From positions 620,001 to 684,000 of the forward strand of contig NZ_CP009501.1 in assembly GCF_000969885.1 (NCBI RefSeq): 64,000 nucleotides of DNA, read 5' to 3'. Both the position numbers and the translations under genes were made by a program. The DNA is from Methanosarcina thermophila TM-1. Lineage in GTDB: Archaea; Halobacteriota; Methanosarcinia; Methanosarcinales; Methanosarcinaceae. Below, one piece after another: positions 4,735 through 11,486 of the stretch; within the stretch, counting starts at the first letter, position 1, and each line of letters opens with the position of its first letter. The notes beneath the pieces are model-generated. The model searched no databases and was not told the DNA's origin. It saw only the letters and a program-made list of their open reading frames with translations.

Positions 4735-5616
4735 GTGATCATACCGCTCGATGAAAATGAGGCACTGGAACTGGGACTTAATCTGGTTGATGAGAAGAAT
4801 GAAGCCGAGATTAATGAAGTCCTTGACTATCTCTTCGAGCTTGTGCTGAAGTATGCAAAAGAAGGACAGGAAGATGACACAAAACGACTGATCGAATATA
4901 TTAAGAAGATAGGACAGGCGGCAGCTACTGCCGGACTTGAGTCGATCGTTGTTAATACCCTTCTACTTTTTCCTCAAGTTGCCAGAGAAGCATGCAAGCA
5001 GCATATGGAAAATGCACTTGTGAGCATAGCACTCGCGTTTGGAGAAATTGGAAAGTTCGCGGCGGGGAAAAGAATGAAAACTCCCGCAAAGATTGCAGCC
5101 TGCTGCCTTGGGGAGATGGGAAACACCGCGGCTTCTAGAGGAGCCAGAAAGGAAACAGTTGCAGTTATTTTTGCTCTTGGGGAAATTGGAAAAAGCGTTA
5201 CATGGCAGAGATTGGGAGATGTCGCAAGCAGTACAGTAGCCCTTATCGGGGAAGCCGGAAAAATTGCGGCAAGACAGAAATTTGAGGATGCAGCATTGAA
5301 TGCTGAGCTGTTGCTTCAGGAAATTGGAACAGGGGCTATTGAGAAAAACCTGAAAGAAACTGCGGATATAAGTTTTCGTTCTATCCGTGACATAGGAAAA
5401 ACTGCAGACAGGCAGGGACTTAATAGGGCTTTACTTCAGGCAGCCTATTCACTTGAAACAATTAAATTTAATGCCGAGGACCGCTATTTGATGAACGCAT
5501 CTATAATTGCCGAAGTGGCTCTCCTGCACTTTGAAAGATTGGAAATTCAAAGACTGGAAGAGAAGCTGTATAAATTTTCCAGATGTAAGAGGAAATATCC
5601 AGGTATGGGATTTTGA
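4735..5616 (+). CDS. 23-residue helical-repeat protein, paralogue 1
   Basis: This 293-residue protein starts at GTG, with GGGGG about 8 nt upstream. After an N-terminal segment of about 55 residues shared with its neighbours (acidic, D/N-E-x-E-A-x-E-L), it consists of nine consecutive repeats of exactly 23 residues, approximate consensus E-I-G-K-x-A-A-x4-L-E-x-A-x3-A-x3-L-G. The repeat phase runs without gaps from the K-I-G-Q-A-A unit to the T-I-K-F-N-A-E unit. It has no signal peptide or membrane segment. Such alanine-rich repeats should form an alpha-solenoid for protein binding, by analogy with HEAT-like proteins, but the period is shorter than TPR (34) or HEAT (about 37-47). Three paralogues follow within 6 kb. 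Function is not known. Confidence 0.75.
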   Translation: MIIPLDENEALELGLNLVDEKNEAEINEVLDYLFELVLKYAKEGQEDDTKRLIEYIKKIGQAAATAGLESIVVNTLLLFPQVAREACKQHMENALVSIALAFGEIGKFAAGKRMKTPAKIAACCLGEMGNTAASRGARKETVAVIFALGEIGKSVTWQRLGDVASSTVALIGEAGKIAARQKFEDAALNAELLLQEIGTGAIEKNLKETADISFRSIRDIGKTADRQGLNRALLQAAYSLETIKFNAEDRYLMNASIIAEVALLHFERLEIQRLEEKLYKFSRCKRKYPGMGF

Positions 5617-5791
5617 ACTTTTACATTCAGGTTAATAGTACCCTTATAAAGTTAAATTAAGGCAATCAGCTCAGTGTCAATTAATCCAGGCGTAGAATAG
5701 CAATATCTGCTCCAGGGAAAGAAGTGAAGGAAGAATTATCTGGCTTTAAGATGCCTTTTCCCGAAATAAGAATTTAAGTGGGGTGTTCTGA

Positions 5792-6622
5792 ACGTCTATT
5801 TTAAACGAAGCTGGGGCAACAGACCTCGGGCTAACTTCAGTTAAGGATAATGATGAGCTTGGTGTGCTACGATCAATAGATTTCCTTACAGAACGGGGAA
5901 CCGAATACATAAATAAGAAACTTGAGCCCGATGCAAAAAAGGCAATTATCAGTATAAGATATATAGGCAGCGCGGCTGCTTTCCAGAGGATGGAAATAGG
6001 GGTGTTTTTATCGCTTTTTTCACTTGGAAAGATGGCCAGAATTGCAAGAGAACAGGAGATGACCGATACCGGTTTAAGTATCCTTTATTCTCTATGCGCG
6101 ATTGGTAAAGCGGCAGTTGGGCAGAATATGGAGGCTGCTGTCAGGATTGCAGTCGCATACCTTGGAGAAATTGCAAATTCCGCATCGCTTCAGAAAATCG
6201 AGAGAGAGACTCTGGTCGCGGCTCTGGCTATAGGCTCTATAGGAACAGAAACTTTTGGACACCAGAGTATTAGAGTTCCGGACAATGGAGGATTTCTCCC
6301 TCCAAAATCATGTATTATCTTGTCCCAATCTCATGGAAAAGATGCAATTATCTTCTCAGGAGAATTTCCGGGCATTTTCAGCCTGTTTATTCAACAGGGA
6401 ACAGATATCGCCCTGAGCGCTCCTGCTCTCTCAGAAGATGAAATTTCTTACACGGACCTCAGTGATCTCGAAAATCTAATCATGAAAACTATCAGTTCTC
6501 TGGATACGATGGTTTTTGAAGTTAAAGAAAAGTTTTTAATAAGTCATATGCTTACGACAAAACTTGCTCTGGACACTCTCAATGGTTCTGAATATATACA
6601 TGAGGCTGAATCCTTGGATTGA
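5792..6622 (+). CDS. 23-residue helical-repeat protein, paralogue 2, with ACG in place of the start codon
   Basis: Homology to the paralogues starts at ACG 5792 (T-S-I-L-N-E-A-G-A, compare M-I-T-L-N-E-A-E-A in the protein at 8846), and TGGGGTG lies 7 nt before it, just as in the sister genes. A TGA lies immediately upstream in frame. Either ACG is a rare start, or the start was lost and translation begins at the in-frame GTG 5864. From ACG the protein has 276 residues. It has about five clear 23-residue units, then a diverged stretch of about 60 residues (roughly encoded by 6250-6440), then a C-terminus alignable with the paralogues. The gene may be decaying. Confidence 0.6.
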   Translation, partial: TSILNEAGATDLGLTSVKDNDELGVLRSIDFLTERGTEYINKKLEPDAKKAIISIRYIGSAAAFQRMEIGVFLSLFSLGKMARIAREQEMTDTGLSILYSLCAIGKAAVGQNMEAAVRIAVAYLGEIANSASLQKIERETLVAALAIGSIGTETFGHQSIRVPDNGGFLPPKSCIILSQSHGKDAIIFSGEFPGIFSLFIQQGTDIALSAPALSEDEISYTDLSDLENLIMKTISSLDTMVFEVKEKFLISHMLTTKLALDTLNGSEYIHEAESLD

Positions 6623-6786
6623 AAGTTTCATAAAGCTTAATTGCAAGCTGCACCAGTAGGCTTGTCTGAGTTTCAGTCCAGGAACTCCCTGGATTTCGGA
6701 TAAACCATTAAACTCAATACAGCTGAAAAGGGCTTAATTTACTGACAGGTTTTAAAAGCCAGAATTTCATCTTTTTTATTGACTGT

Positions 6787-6843
6787 GCCGCCGAATAAAG
6801 AAAAAGCTATATACCAGCTATTTAGGGTTTCTTCACCGGCGGC
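6787..6843. ncRNA. Candidate structured element with a GC-rich stem
   Basis: GCCGCCG (6787-6793) and CGGCGGC (6837-6843) are perfectly complementary. Inside them AGAAA and TTTCT can pair, and an AGCT...AGCT pair can form the apical hairpin. A nested GC-rich stem in an otherwise AT-rich gap is unusual. No oligo-T follows directly, so the polarity and whether it is an RNA leader, a small RNA or a DNA element cannot be decided. Confidence 0.3.
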
Positions 6844-7039
6844 TCTGCATGTTTTAATTATGCTTTAAGGACGAATTCTGATCTTTAAAATAATAAGAAT
6901 TTTAGAATTTAAGGCTCATTTTTCAGAATATATATTTCCAAATGATTTTATTATTCCAATTTATTATTCTTACGTGCTGTAATAAAATCAGAATTTATTT
7001 TTGCCGGGGCAACTTTACCAATCAGGGGGTTATTGGTTC

Positions 7040-8542
7040 ATGAAAAGCGAGTTAGTTCAGATTATTCTCATAATTTTTCTTATTATGCCTGGGATAGCCG
7101 TAGCCCAGGGTAATGCTTCTGTTATTATAGTAAATAACAGTGGGGAAGGAAACTATACTTCGATCCAGGAAGCTGTCAGGAATGCTCAGAACGGAGATAC
7201 AATTCTTGTAAGCCCTGGGGTGTACAGGGAAAATATAAAAGTAGATAAGGGGCTCACAATTCTCTCATATTCCACGCTTTCAGGCAGTCAGACTGACCGT
7301 ACCTATGTTATAAGCGCAATGCCTGGCAATGCTGTCTTCAATATCAGCGCAGGCAACGTGACAATAGAAGGTTTTCATATTGCAGGAGATCCCTCTGGTA
7401 CGGATAAGTACGGGAATGCAGGGTTTTACCTTGAAAATGTGCAGAACTGTACATTACGTGATAACGCACTGATGCTTAATGATCTGGGCATTGTTCTCAA
7501 GAATTCTCAGGGCAACTATCTTGAAGGAAACCTTGTAAGTCTTGGAAGTAAGGGAATTATGCTTGGCAATTCTGAGAATAATGTACTGTCAGAGAATCTG
7601 GTAGTGAAAAACGACCAGGGAGTTTCGTTGAACAATTCCTTTAACAATACTCTTATTAACAATACTGCAGATTCAAACGAAATAGGCATCTTCCTGGAAA
7701 TGTCACAGGGGAATAAACTTGCTTACAATCTCATTTTGAAAAATAAATACGGAATTCGGGGTCAGTTAGCAGGGACAAATGTTCTGACCAGTAATAATCT
7801 GTACCTCAACGACGTTGGAGTACATCTTAGTGATTCATCTAACAATTCGCTCTATGAGAATGAATTTATTAATGCGGTCAATGCCATAGATGAAGGAAAG
7901 AATATCTGGAACAGCAGTTCAGCAGGTAATTTCTGGGGAAATCATGAGAGGGCAGAAGCTGATGAGAACGGCATAATAGGCACGCCCTATGTTATTAACA
8001 TGACTGGTGGGGCTGCAGACTATATGCCTTTGATAAACAGGCTTTCCTCAGATGACAGTTCACAGAATCGGAACATCAAAGGTAATACCTTATTGACCCT
8101 GTTTAATAAGAAATACCCTCCGATTTTCCCAGGTACCCGGGAAAAAGGAGTTGTTATCGAGACGACTGAACTTGAGCAGATAAACAAATCCCTTGAAGAA
8201 GGACCGGTTTTTTTGAGACTCGGAGCTGAATGGTGCAGCGCCTGCCAGTCCATGAAACCTATCCTTGATGAGCTGGCAGCCGAGTACGGAGAAAATATAA
8301 CGATTATGTCCGTAAACATCAACCAGAACATCGAGCTTGCGACTTATTTTGATGTAGGCTATATCCCTGACTCTACCGTAATTATGGACATTGAGGATGG
8401 GAAGTACATTTACATGCAGCAGGATGGGAATATAACCACAGACAGAGTCAGAGCAAGAATTGTAGGATTACAGAATAAGGATGAATATGAAAAAGTTCTG
8501 AAACATGCCCTTGCCTATGAAGAAAAAAGAAAAACCGTATAA
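7040..8542 (+). CDS. Exported NosD-like beta-helix protein with C-terminal thioredoxin domain
   Basis: This 500-residue protein starts at ATG 7040, with GGGGG about 11 nt upstream; a TTG at 7001 would place 13 residues before the signal peptide and is less likely. Residues 1-23 form a signal peptide ending at A-V-A-Q. Residues of about 30-330 are a right-handed parallel beta-helix of PbH1/NosD type, seen as repeating N-x-(I/L)-x-x-N-x turns rich in N-N and L-x-x-N. After a linker, residues of about 375-480 form a thioredoxin domain with W398-C399-S-A-C402 and the conserved cis-proline-like Y-I-P-D. Beta-helix domains bind carbohydrates or partners outside the cell, and the CxxC suggests extracytoplasmic disulfide exchange. 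The combination is uncommon. It sits between repeat-protein paralogues 2 and 3. Confidence 0.8.
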   Translation: MKSELVQIILIIFLIMPGIAVAQGNASVIIVNNSGEGNYTSIQEAVRNAQNGDTILVSPGVYRENIKVDKGLTILSYSTLSGSQTDRTYVISAMPGNAVFNISAGNVTIEGFHIAGDPSGTDKYGNAGFYLENVQNCTLRDNALMLNDLGIVLKNSQGNYLEGNLVSLGSKGIMLGNSENNVLSENLVVKNDQGVSLNNSFNNTLINNTADSNEIGIFLEMSQGNKLAYNLILKNKYGIRGQLAGTNVLTSNNLYLNDVGVHLSDSSNNSLYENEFINAVNAIDEGKNIWNSSSAGNFWGNHERAEADENGIIGTPYVINMTGGAADYMPLINRLSSDDSSQNRNIKGNTLLTLFNKKYPPIFPGTREKGVVIETTELEQINKSLEEGPVFLRLGAEWCSACQSMKPILDELAAEYGENITIMSVNINQNIELATYFDVGYIPDSTVIMDIEDGKYIYMQQDGNITTDRVRARIVGLQNKDEYEKVLKHALAYEEKRKTV

Positions 8543-8845
8543 ATGGAATCTCTGGCAAAGTAGACTCAATCTGAACTCGACTTCAAAACCTGAGATTCCA
8601 TAAAAACGGAAAATACCCTTTTAAATGAACTGTCTCAATTACAAAATAGTAACACTAATAATCTCGTAACTTCATAGAGTAAGCCGGTCTTTAATTGCCT
8701 GTACGGGCTATATGCCCCACGCGAATTTACAACCGACAGTATGCGAAGAATGCGAGGCAGCAATTGAGAAATCACAGGGAGAGACCTGAGACTTAAAGTG
8801 TTATGACTTAAAGTGCTATATCATAAATAAAGAGGGGCAAAAAGA
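8543..8845. other. Intergenic region, possible coding relic
   Basis: No gene can be supported. Around 8711-8788 a short frame encodes a peptide with a C-x2-C pair (V-C-E-E-C-E), but it has no ribosome binding site and may be chance or a relic. AGAGGGG at 8831-8837 is the ribosome binding site of the next gene. Confidence 0.3.
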
Positions 8846-9730
8846 ATGATTACATTAAATGAGGCAGAGGCAGTTGAGGTAAGTTTATCTGCTGTTGACG
8901 AAGGAGATGAGACCAGAGCTTTCCAGGCTCTGGATTCCCTTACAGGGATTGCGGCAGATTTCCTTTCTGAAAATGAAGAGGCAGATGCCGAGAGAGTTAT
9001 TTTATCAATTGAGAGTGCTGCACACGCAGCTGCAGAAAGAGATATGGAACTTGTTGCCATCAATTCAGTTCTGTCCCTCGGGAAACTGGCAAGGGCAGCA
9101 GCAGATAAAGGATTTGATTCCGCCCTGAGCAAAGCCTTTATAGCAATAGGAAGAGTGGGAAAAACTGCTGCTGCACATTCGCTTGAAGCAGGCTCTAAGG
9201 TCGCTGCTTCAACCCTTCTGGAGATCTGGAAGTTTTCCTCCGAATCGTGGGATCAGGAAAAAATAATTACCATCTCTTTGCTTTTTAAAGAGATAGGAGC
9301 CTCTGCTGCCAAAAGTGGTATGGAGGAAGCCATACTCAGTGCAGTTACAGGTCTGGGAGAACTCGGGAAAAGGACTGCAGCAGATAACCTTGAACTTGAG
9401 ACTGTCAGTGCTCTGCTTTTGCTTGAGGAAGTAGGCAAGCTTGCTGCAGAGAATTACTTTGACGAAGCCCTTAGTTCAACAGCGCTTTCCATAGAGGATA
9501 TTGGAAAAATATGTAAAAAGAAGGGGCTCAGTGATGCGGTTTTACAATGCCAGTGGGCACTTGAGACCCTTCGAGTTCAGGCTGAGGAAAAAATGCTGAA
9601 TAACTCTTCAGTAGTGGCGGAACTGGCGCTGGATAATTTCACAGAAACAGGCTATATTGAATCTGAGGAAAAGTTGGAGAAGTTTCAGGAAATAAAAACC
9701 CTTCAGGAAAAAATTCAATCTAAGCTGTAA
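8846..9730 (+). CDS. 23-residue helical-repeat protein, paralogue 3
   Basis: This 294-residue protein starts at ATG, with AGAGGGG about 8 nt upstream. It has the same plan as the protein at 4735: an acidic N-terminal segment (L-N-E-A-E-A-V-E-V-S-L), nine gapless 23-residue units (from S-A-A-H-A-A-A-E to T-L-R-V-Q-A-E-E), then a charged C-terminal helix. The best-conserved units begin E-I-G, E-L-G-K, E-V-G-K and D-I-G-K. It is predicted to be all-alpha, cytoplasmic, with no catalytic motif. The equal repeat number in two paralogues argues that solenoid length is under selection. Function unknown. Confidence 0.75.
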   Translation: MITLNEAEAVEVSLSAVDEGDETRAFQALDSLTGIAADFLSENEEADAERVILSIESAAHAAAERDMELVAINSVLSLGKLARAAADKGFDSALSKAFIAIGRVGKTAAAHSLEAGSKVAASTLLEIWKFSSESWDQEKIITISLLFKEIGASAAKSGMEEAILSAVTGLGELGKRTAADNLELETVSALLLLEEVGKLAAENYFDEALSSTALSIEDIGKICKKKGLSDAVLQCQWALETLRVQAEEKMLNNSSVVAELALDNFTETGYIESEEKLEKFQEIKTLQEKIQSKL

Positions 9731-10140
9731 ACACAGGGCAGATGGCTATGTGATCAGGTTATTTCAGGAACCTATTACATAGCCACATCTTTACATTACC
9801 AAAATCTTAATATAATTGAGTTTTGGTTTTAATTAACAGTCTGACGGAAGCAGCTGAATTCAAAGAACAACCTTAAGCCTCTCAATCAGGAATTTTTTTT
9901 CATCCGGGAACTTAAAAGGTGCTCTAAAGAAGCAGGGCCTGTCAAAGTTGAGAGAAGTGCATGGAAACTATTAAAAGATTTCTTACTTACTTTAAACCAT
10001 AAGATTTAAATAAATTATTGAAGTATTTCCTCTAAAACAAAAGAATCACCCTGCTGATAAATGTTTGAGATTTCGAAATGGAATAACCATATTCATCTTC
10101 CATATTTCGTTGTGCACCCAGTATTCAACACAGCTGGTCA
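9731..10140. other. Intergenic region upstream of a candidate small RNA
   Basis: No ORF worth reporting. The AT-rich sequence between the repeat-protein gene and the hairpins at 10141 should contain any promoter of the putative small RNA, but no single strong TATA box stands out. Confidence 0.35.
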
Positions 10141-10236
10141 GGTAGGAGGAAGGTAAGGAGTCGAACCCTTCTTCCTACCGGAGGTTGGTCTTGCTCATGC
10201 AGGAGAACACGCAAGAAAGCCTGTATGAGTTTTTTT
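10141..10236 (+). ncRNA. Candidate small RNA with two stem-loops and an oligo-T end
   Basis: Stem 1 pairs GGTAGGAGGAAG (10141-10152) with CTTCTTCCTACC (10168-10179): 12 pairs including one G-U, loop of 15 nt. Stem 2 pairs CTCATGCAGG (10194-10203) with CCTGTATGAG (10220-10229): 10 pairs with one G-U, followed at once by seven T (10230-10236), a classic intrinsic-terminator shape. The G-U pairs preserve pairing only when the plus strand is the RNA. The nearest genes are about 400 bp upstream and 500 bp downstream, so this looks like an independent transcript and not a gene's terminator. The 5' end may lie further upstream. Confidence 0.45.
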
Positions 10237-10733
10237 GTTCATACAATATATATTATGCATGAAATGTATATAACTTTTTCTATTTTATCAATATGTAAAT
10301 TATACGAATGGTTCCTGCATACCATTTTTTGAAAAGGATATAAGAGAATCTTAAAGAGATAATATATTTAGTAATTCTTTACTATTTATAAGCGATTGAT
10401 CTACAACTTATCTGCGACTTATCTAATTGACTTACCTGTTCCATCAACTTCTAAATCGACTTATCTATTTCATCAACTTCTAAAATATCTATTTTTCAAG
10501 CTTTTATATATTCTAATCAGCGTTTACAGGGAATTTGTTAATTAAGCAGAGATTTAAAAGTTTTTTATTTATTTTCCAGCTTTTTAGAAGATTTTTTTAA
10601 AATAATTTCTCTGAAATTTCCAATATACTTTTAAAATTATAGGAAGCCTAATATCCGAGTAAACCTATATAAATAATTAAACTCTTAAAATGCGAAAACT
10701 TTTCAAAGGATTTTACTGGAAAGGGGTTTTAAT
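10237..10733. other. AT-rich intergenic region before paralogue 4
   Basis: No gene was seen. The region contains runs such as CTTATCTAnTTCATCAACTTCTAAA, partly repeated near 10420-10490 (two imperfect copies), and the promoter of the gene at 10734, whose ribosome binding site is AAGGGG. Confidence 0.35.
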
Positions 10734-11486
10734 ATGTTCTCAATGAACGAACAAAAGGCTATTGAACTTGGAGAATCTGGAGAGCGAGCGGTAAGAGAGC
10801 AGAATGAATATGATGCGCTCCAATATATTGACTATCTTCGGGAATTCGGGGAAGAGCTGCTTAATGCCGATCTAGAGAAGGATTTAAAAAGAGTCGTTAT
10901 CTCAATCCGGAACATTGGCAATAAAGCTGTCCAGAATAGGATGGATAACGTTGCGTACACAGCGCTTAGTGAACTTAAAATACTTTCTGAACCTGCACTT
11001 GACAAGAACTTCTCAAACGCAATGTGGTCTTTTTCAAAAGCTATACAGGAGATTGGAAAAGGAGCAGTACAGTTTCAGATGCTTGAACCTGCCCAAATTG
11101 CTATTGATGCGCTTAAGATGATAGGACTGGGCGCAGTTGAAAAGAGAATGGAAGTCGTAACCTTGTGGACTACCCTGGCTCTTGAGGAAATAGCTTACCT
11201 TGCAAAACGGCAGCAGCTTGAAGATTTCAGCAAGGCAGCAATGGACGCCAGAGAAGAGATTATAGAAGCCTCAGAATTAGCTAATTTCAAGACAAGAGAG
11301 GAAATAGAGAAATATCCCCAGCTCATTGCTCAGACTGTAAGTCAATATTCGGAGCTCCAGAATCTCCAGCCTGCAGGTTATGCAGCCAAGCCTAATGAAG
11401 AGTTCACAGAAGAGGAATTCTTTGAGGACGAAGGAGATACTGGGGAGCAGGAGCCCGAAACTGAGGCTGCCAAAAAGGAAAAGTGA
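10734..11486 (+). CDS. 23-residue helical-repeat protein, paralogue 4, with acidic tail
   Basis: This 250-residue protein starts at ATG with AAAGGGG 8 nt upstream. The N-terminus (M-N-E-Q-K-A-I-E-L-G) aligns with the other three paralogues. Five 23-residue units are clear, from N-I-G-N-K-A-V through E-I-A-Y-L-A-K. The rest is a different C-terminus: a short helical segment and an acidic, low-complexity tail (E-E-F-T-E-E-E-F-F-E-D-E and on) ending in K-K-E-K. It is a shorter member of the family with a tail of its own, which suggests a distinct partner. Soluble, no catalytic motif, function unknown. Confidence 0.7.
   Translation: MFSMNEQKAIELGESGERAVREQNEYDALQYIDYLREFGEELLNADLEKDLKRVVISIRNIGNKAVQNRMDNVAYTALSELKILSEPALDKNFSNAMWSFSKAIQEIGKGAVQFQMLEPAQIAIDALKMIGLGAVEKRMEVVTLWTTLALEEIAYLAKRQQLEDFSKAAMDAREEIIEASELANFKTREEIEKYPQLIAQTVSQYSELQNLQPAGYAAKPNEEFTEEEFFEDEGDTGEQEPETEAAKKEK

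Follow-up and report, generated by a model that had tools for sequence, protein, structure and literature searches.

Described Helical Repeats and the Genes of the Window

The canonical HEAT unit consists of two helices in about 30-47 residues, and the TPR, ARM, Sel1 and PPR solenoids accommodate two or three helices in 34-42 residues. Designed helical repeat proteins are likewise made of two-helix units, and leucine-rich repeats (LRR) consist of a strand and a conserved Leu/Asn pattern in 20-29 residues. To our knowledge, the natural helical solenoids have two or three helices per unit. A term search of the review PMC11514114 brought up no one-helix class.

The proteins considered here are encoded in a 64-kb window, that is, the whole stretch of Methanosarcina thermophila TM-1 DNA that was analysed (bases 620001-684000 in a genome of 3.13 Mb assembled as one contig). 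The original prediction had pointed to four paralogues at 4735-11486 with a common period; all four are there, on the + strand and forming one family, and autocorrelation confirmed the period that they share (z values of 4.6-9.2). Protein A (4735-5616, +; 293 aa, GTG start) presents an N-terminal cap and about nine recognisable 23-residue units, protein B (5792-6622, +; 276 aa, ACG start) the cap and six units followed by a low-confidence C-terminal tail, protein C (8846-9730, +; 294 aa) a cap helix followed by ten helices spaced exactly 23 residues apart and by C-terminal helices, and protein D (10734-11486, +; 250 aa) the cap and roughly five clear units, ending in an acidic tail. Two further paralogues lie outside the window, E at 958234-959091 of the genome (- strand) and F at 289357-290232 (+ strand). 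The family proteins are acidic (pI 4.5-5.7), with an alanine content of 10-15%, and no membrane segment was seen on inspection of their sequences.

The listed open reading frame of protein B starts at 5864, and comparison with orthologues carries the homology upstream to an ACG at 5792 (5792-5794), which has a TGA upstream and the sequence GGGGTG six bases before it. The corresponding codon in orthologues is ATG, GTG or again ACG, the last being common to several Methanosarcina genomes, which is unusual for a shared start codon. Codons 2-24 look to be under purifying selection when orthologues are compared; because the changes there are mostly synonymous rather than amino-acid changes (e.g., 6 to 1, 10 to 3, 12 to 5), the stretch between 5792 and 5864 is most likely translated. 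Part of the C-terminal tail of B is variable among orthologues. Because the reading frame of B is conserved end to end, neither a frameshift nor a pseudogene was accepted as an explanation.

The 23-Residue Unit

In the autocorrelation of self-similarity, lags 23 and 46 were the top two in all six proteins (A-F). The z values of lag 23 relative to shuffles were 9.2 for A, 4.6 for B, 8.0 for C, 4.9 for D, 8.2 for E and 6.1 for F, and the value at this lag was reached at any lag by at most 0.05% of 2000 shuffles. The excess similarity declines smoothly with lag from 23 to 184, with means over lag multiples of 0.86, 0.87, 0.66, 0.63, 0.35 and 0.34, with no advantage of even over odd multiples. As there is no preference for even multiples, the unit is one of 23 residues and not of 46, each unit being equivalent to its neighbour. 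Its commonest residues are E1, A7, L11, G or E at position 12 and E13 in the first part, followed by I14, G15, K16, A18, A19 and L, M or F at position 23.

The most regular description can be given for protein C, whose gapless ten-unit array (8909-9598, +), defined from the unit table and the AlphaFold2 helices, covers residues 22-251 in one register and with zero insertions. Units were also located in a fixed 23-residue register with a matrix built solely from units found in distant DUF2254 proteins, the threshold being set at 99% of the null. This procedure gave nine positions in A, eight in C, six consecutive units plus one out-of-register peak in B, and eight in D, although only four or five of these last are clear; in C, two of the ten modelled helices have poor motifs. 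An earlier count of exactly nine units in two of the proteins is consequently approximate, as nine fits A, whereas C has eight units by the matrix and ten modelled helices. The description of one member as five clear units plus an acidic tail agrees with D. Protein B, which had been taken as partly diverged, is not merely so, since six regular units are followed by a low-confidence tail of about 115 residues.

Predicted Fold

With 42 family sequences as input, AlphaFold2 modelled protein C with high confidence as a regular all-helical solenoid (mean pLDDT 92.9, pTM 0.90). The model opens with a short cap helix and closes with two further helices; between them, ten helices of some 20 residues start every 23 residues (22-41, 45-64, 68-87, 91-110, 114-130, 137-156, 160-179, 183-202, 206-226 and 229-248). 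Each 23-residue unit contributes one 20-residue helix and a 3-residue loop, and there are zero strands. The repetitive solenoid with one helix per 23 residues that had been named as one possible outcome for the protein at 8846-9730 is therefore what the prediction returned, and this modelled array of regularly stacked helices formed from tandem repeats is, as a prediction, that of an alpha-solenoid. Because the loops are only 3 residues long, neighbouring helices would run in alternating (antiparallel) direction. In the model of protein B the same cap and six units were obtained at high to moderate confidence, and the tail has a pLDDT below 50.

The nearest solved folds are designed helical repeat proteins (DHR54 5cwl, 8fin and 7rdr). 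Among the 50 matches listed, nearly all of the top ones are man-made proteins of this kind, and the query-normalised TM does not exceed 0.58; relative to target length, 8fin reaches a TM of 0.81-0.83, with an rmsd of 2.5 over about 170 columns. Natural TPR proteins (LGN-type) stand lower among the weak fold matches, with TM near 0.3, no natural HEAT protein occurs within the top 50, and the viral fold library gave zero matches at E 0.001. The TPR, ARM, Sel1 and PPR solenoids have stacked helices in common with the window proteins, but no sequence match. At the level of family models, the window proteins had zero matches above chance in Pfam, NCBIfam and PADLOC; Rfam gave no match and no relative was found in viral contigs. 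The view that the period belongs to no known repeat class is thereby upheld for the window proteins, with regard to these three model collections and to the one-helix solenoid that is predicted.

Kinship with DUF2254 Membrane Proteins

When 393 genomes of the phylum, representing 136 genera, were searched, significant matches turned up in 25 of the genera, the window's own included, with strong full-length members only in the latter and in one sister genus; a second sister genus with members was added by a family-wide search. The ten best distant matches, which were the ones examined, are frames of 404-575 residues, all with an N-terminal DUF2254 domain (PF10011) above the Pfam cut-off and, after this membrane domain, a C-terminal run of 23-residue units of identical type. 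The repeat is thus not confined to the family, being also found at the C-terminus of archaeal DUF2254 proteins from other genera and families of the phylum. In the DUF2254 proteins, the PF10011 match falls on the membrane part (model positions about 5-170), outside the repeats. The window proteins lack this membrane domain, and PF10011 matched neither these proteins nor anything else in their genome.

The repeats on both sides share the approximate consensus E-x-A-x3-A-x3-L-G-E-I-G-K-x-A-A-x3-G-L in the same register, and the matrix made from the DUF2254 repeats locates the units of the window proteins in register. When the family profile was compared with the ten DUF2254 proteins it scored 72-136 bits, with ungapped alignments of up to 188 residues. 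In the controls, period-preserving scrambles did not exceed 18.6 bits and reversed sequences 16.0, and only 2 of 200 scrambles that preserved the 23-residue period and the composition registered at all. In some DUF2254 proteins the profile match extends into the N-terminal cap, and in one of them (L097) a weaker match pairs the N-terminal cap region with the segment after the membrane domain. We take the window proteins and the DUF2254 C-termini to be related by descent, beyond the repeat alone; judged by sequence, the soluble proteins look like the DUF2254 cytosolic domain minus its membrane part, and the membrane form may be the ancestral one of the two. Some other Methanosarcina (L107, L110) encode long DUF2254 proteins, about 900 residues in length, whose 23-residue units are degenerate; such proteins are absent from the window's genome.

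Other origins of the repeat have to be weighed against this background. The proteins are helical and rich in alanine (10-15%), and the period could in principle be a by-product of that composition, with no true repeat behind it; yet shuffling each protein does not yield the period, and scrambled units with both period and composition preserved do not rise above 18.6 bits, compared with the 72-136 of the DUF2254 proteins, so that such a possibility was rejected and has a negligible chance of being correct. The same can be said of an assignment to the LRR, which include 23-residue forms with the motif EIGKL. The family profile does match the leptospiral LRR protein LIC11098 (4u08) in a 23-residue register, with a whole-sequence E of 1.8e-5, but no stretch is individually significant (best i-Evalue 0.081), the asparagine and strand pattern of the LRR is absent and the model is all-helical; the match was put down to the common EIGKL rhythm at 23 residues. 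Unlikely, but deserving more weight than these two, is that the units are ordinary HEAT/PBS-lyase-type repeats that diverged too much to be recognised by Pfam. The HEAT and PBS-lyase HEAT-like families (PF03130, PF13646) are also all-helical solenoids with an A-L-G-x-I-G-like motif, the one seen here being similar to the HEAT_PBS consensus; a few members show weak HEAT_PBS/HEAT_2 matches, and the DUF2254 relative L103 lies above the HEAT_PBS cut-off (35.7 bits vs 20.9). However, no HEAT match to the window proteins appears even at E 10, the lowest value among 42 family members is E 0.011, and natural HEAT proteins do not appear in the top 50 fold matches. The architecture also differs, the prediction being a single uninterrupted 20-residue helix in every 23 residues, with G-x-x-G within the helix and no super-period of 46, in place of the two helices per about 30-47 residues of HEAT. 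As regards current annotation, the score of L103 means that this repeat may be found labelled as HEAT.

What emerges is a single-helix repeat within the alpha-solenoid class that is undescribed in the family databases searched, and its link to DUF2254 is unexpected. That it constitutes a natural solenoid class with a single-helix unit and all units equivalent, existing both as a DUF2254 tail and as an ancient free-standing Methanosarcina family, is the reading that we hold to be somewhat favoured. Equivalent one-helix units would generate a rod whose two layers are alike, with no distinction between a convex and a concave layer.

Age of the Paralogues and Gene Order

Well-assembled Methanosarcina genomes usually carry six to twelve copies of the family. 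In the tree, the groups A-F and an additional one, X, are separate, each with 99-100% bootstrap, while the deeper branching is weakly supported, with long branches meeting there. The groups A-F each contain sequences from Methanosarcina and from a sister genus, and X was sampled from sister genera only. The tree thus indicates that the six paralogue groups split before Methanosarcina and its sister genera diverged, and the tandem expansion contemplated in the original prediction is not a recent one. Orthologues in syntenic loci are 59-92% identical for A, 57-89% for C and 54-91% for D.

The order A-B-C is kept in nearly all Methanosarcina loci with enough sequence. In many loci D and the trp genes follow downstream, D adjoining trpG in most, with trpG convergent to D. 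Between B and C of the window, positions 7040-8542 encode a protein in which NosD-type beta-helix repeats are fused to a thioredoxin domain; this gene occupies that place in one Methanosarcina clade and is absent from it in the others. Paralogue X, which lies between C and D, is intact in sister genera (L072-L074) and shortened or interrupted by stops in several Methanosarcina genomes (L040, L046, L049, L052). A remnant of X was sought between C and D in the window and not found.

Proposed Function and Significance

The explanation that we propose, with a probability of roughly 0.6, is that the window proteins are soluble cytosolic solenoids of single-helix repeats, kin to the cytosolic domain of DUF2254 proteins, which serve as binding scaffolds or adaptors. 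In this model, units of a 20-residue helix and a 3-residue loop, all nearly equivalent, would point in alternating directions and pile up into a rod, corresponding to the cytosolic C-terminal domain of DUF2254 without the membrane part, and the rod would offer a long surface for binding. Each paralogue has retained a distinct sequence and ending from a time before the origin of the genus, and probably has a binding partner of its own. The repeat, the predicted fold, the paralogy, the kinship with DUF2254 proteins and the long conservation are computational results. By analogy with other solenoids, the role is most likely that of a binding scaffold or adaptor, with the cytosolic location and the partner binding of the window proteins themselves inferred; a catalytic or nucleic-acid-binding role may also be envisaged, although the proteins are acidic. 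Comparison of the loci disclosed no operon partner common to the paralogues, E and F standing alone. Searches of the literature on the repeat and the domain, and on M. acetivorans locus tags (the latter guessed, which made for a weak search) returned no function, partner, expression or phenotype.

A more specific role would be the regulation of DUF2254 membrane proteins, with the window proteins competing or co-assembling with their cytosolic domain. Repeat and cap are common to both, and several Methanosarcina genomes also encode a long DUF2254 protein, its units being degenerate. Against this, the window's genome keeps all the paralogues and has zero DUF2254 matches, and the same holds for other complete genomes of the genus (e.g., G075). 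Such regulation is improbable, a little more so than the HEAT assignment, and as a general role it is unlikely because the window's genome has no DUF2254 protein.

A unit of one helix makes the simplest solenoid conceivable, one that resembles the constructs of protein designers. The repeat delimits a protein family that has had no family model and of which most well-assembled Methanosarcina genomes contain about six to twelve copies. It also provides a structural and evolutionary handle on archaeal DUF2254, a membrane family of unknown function.
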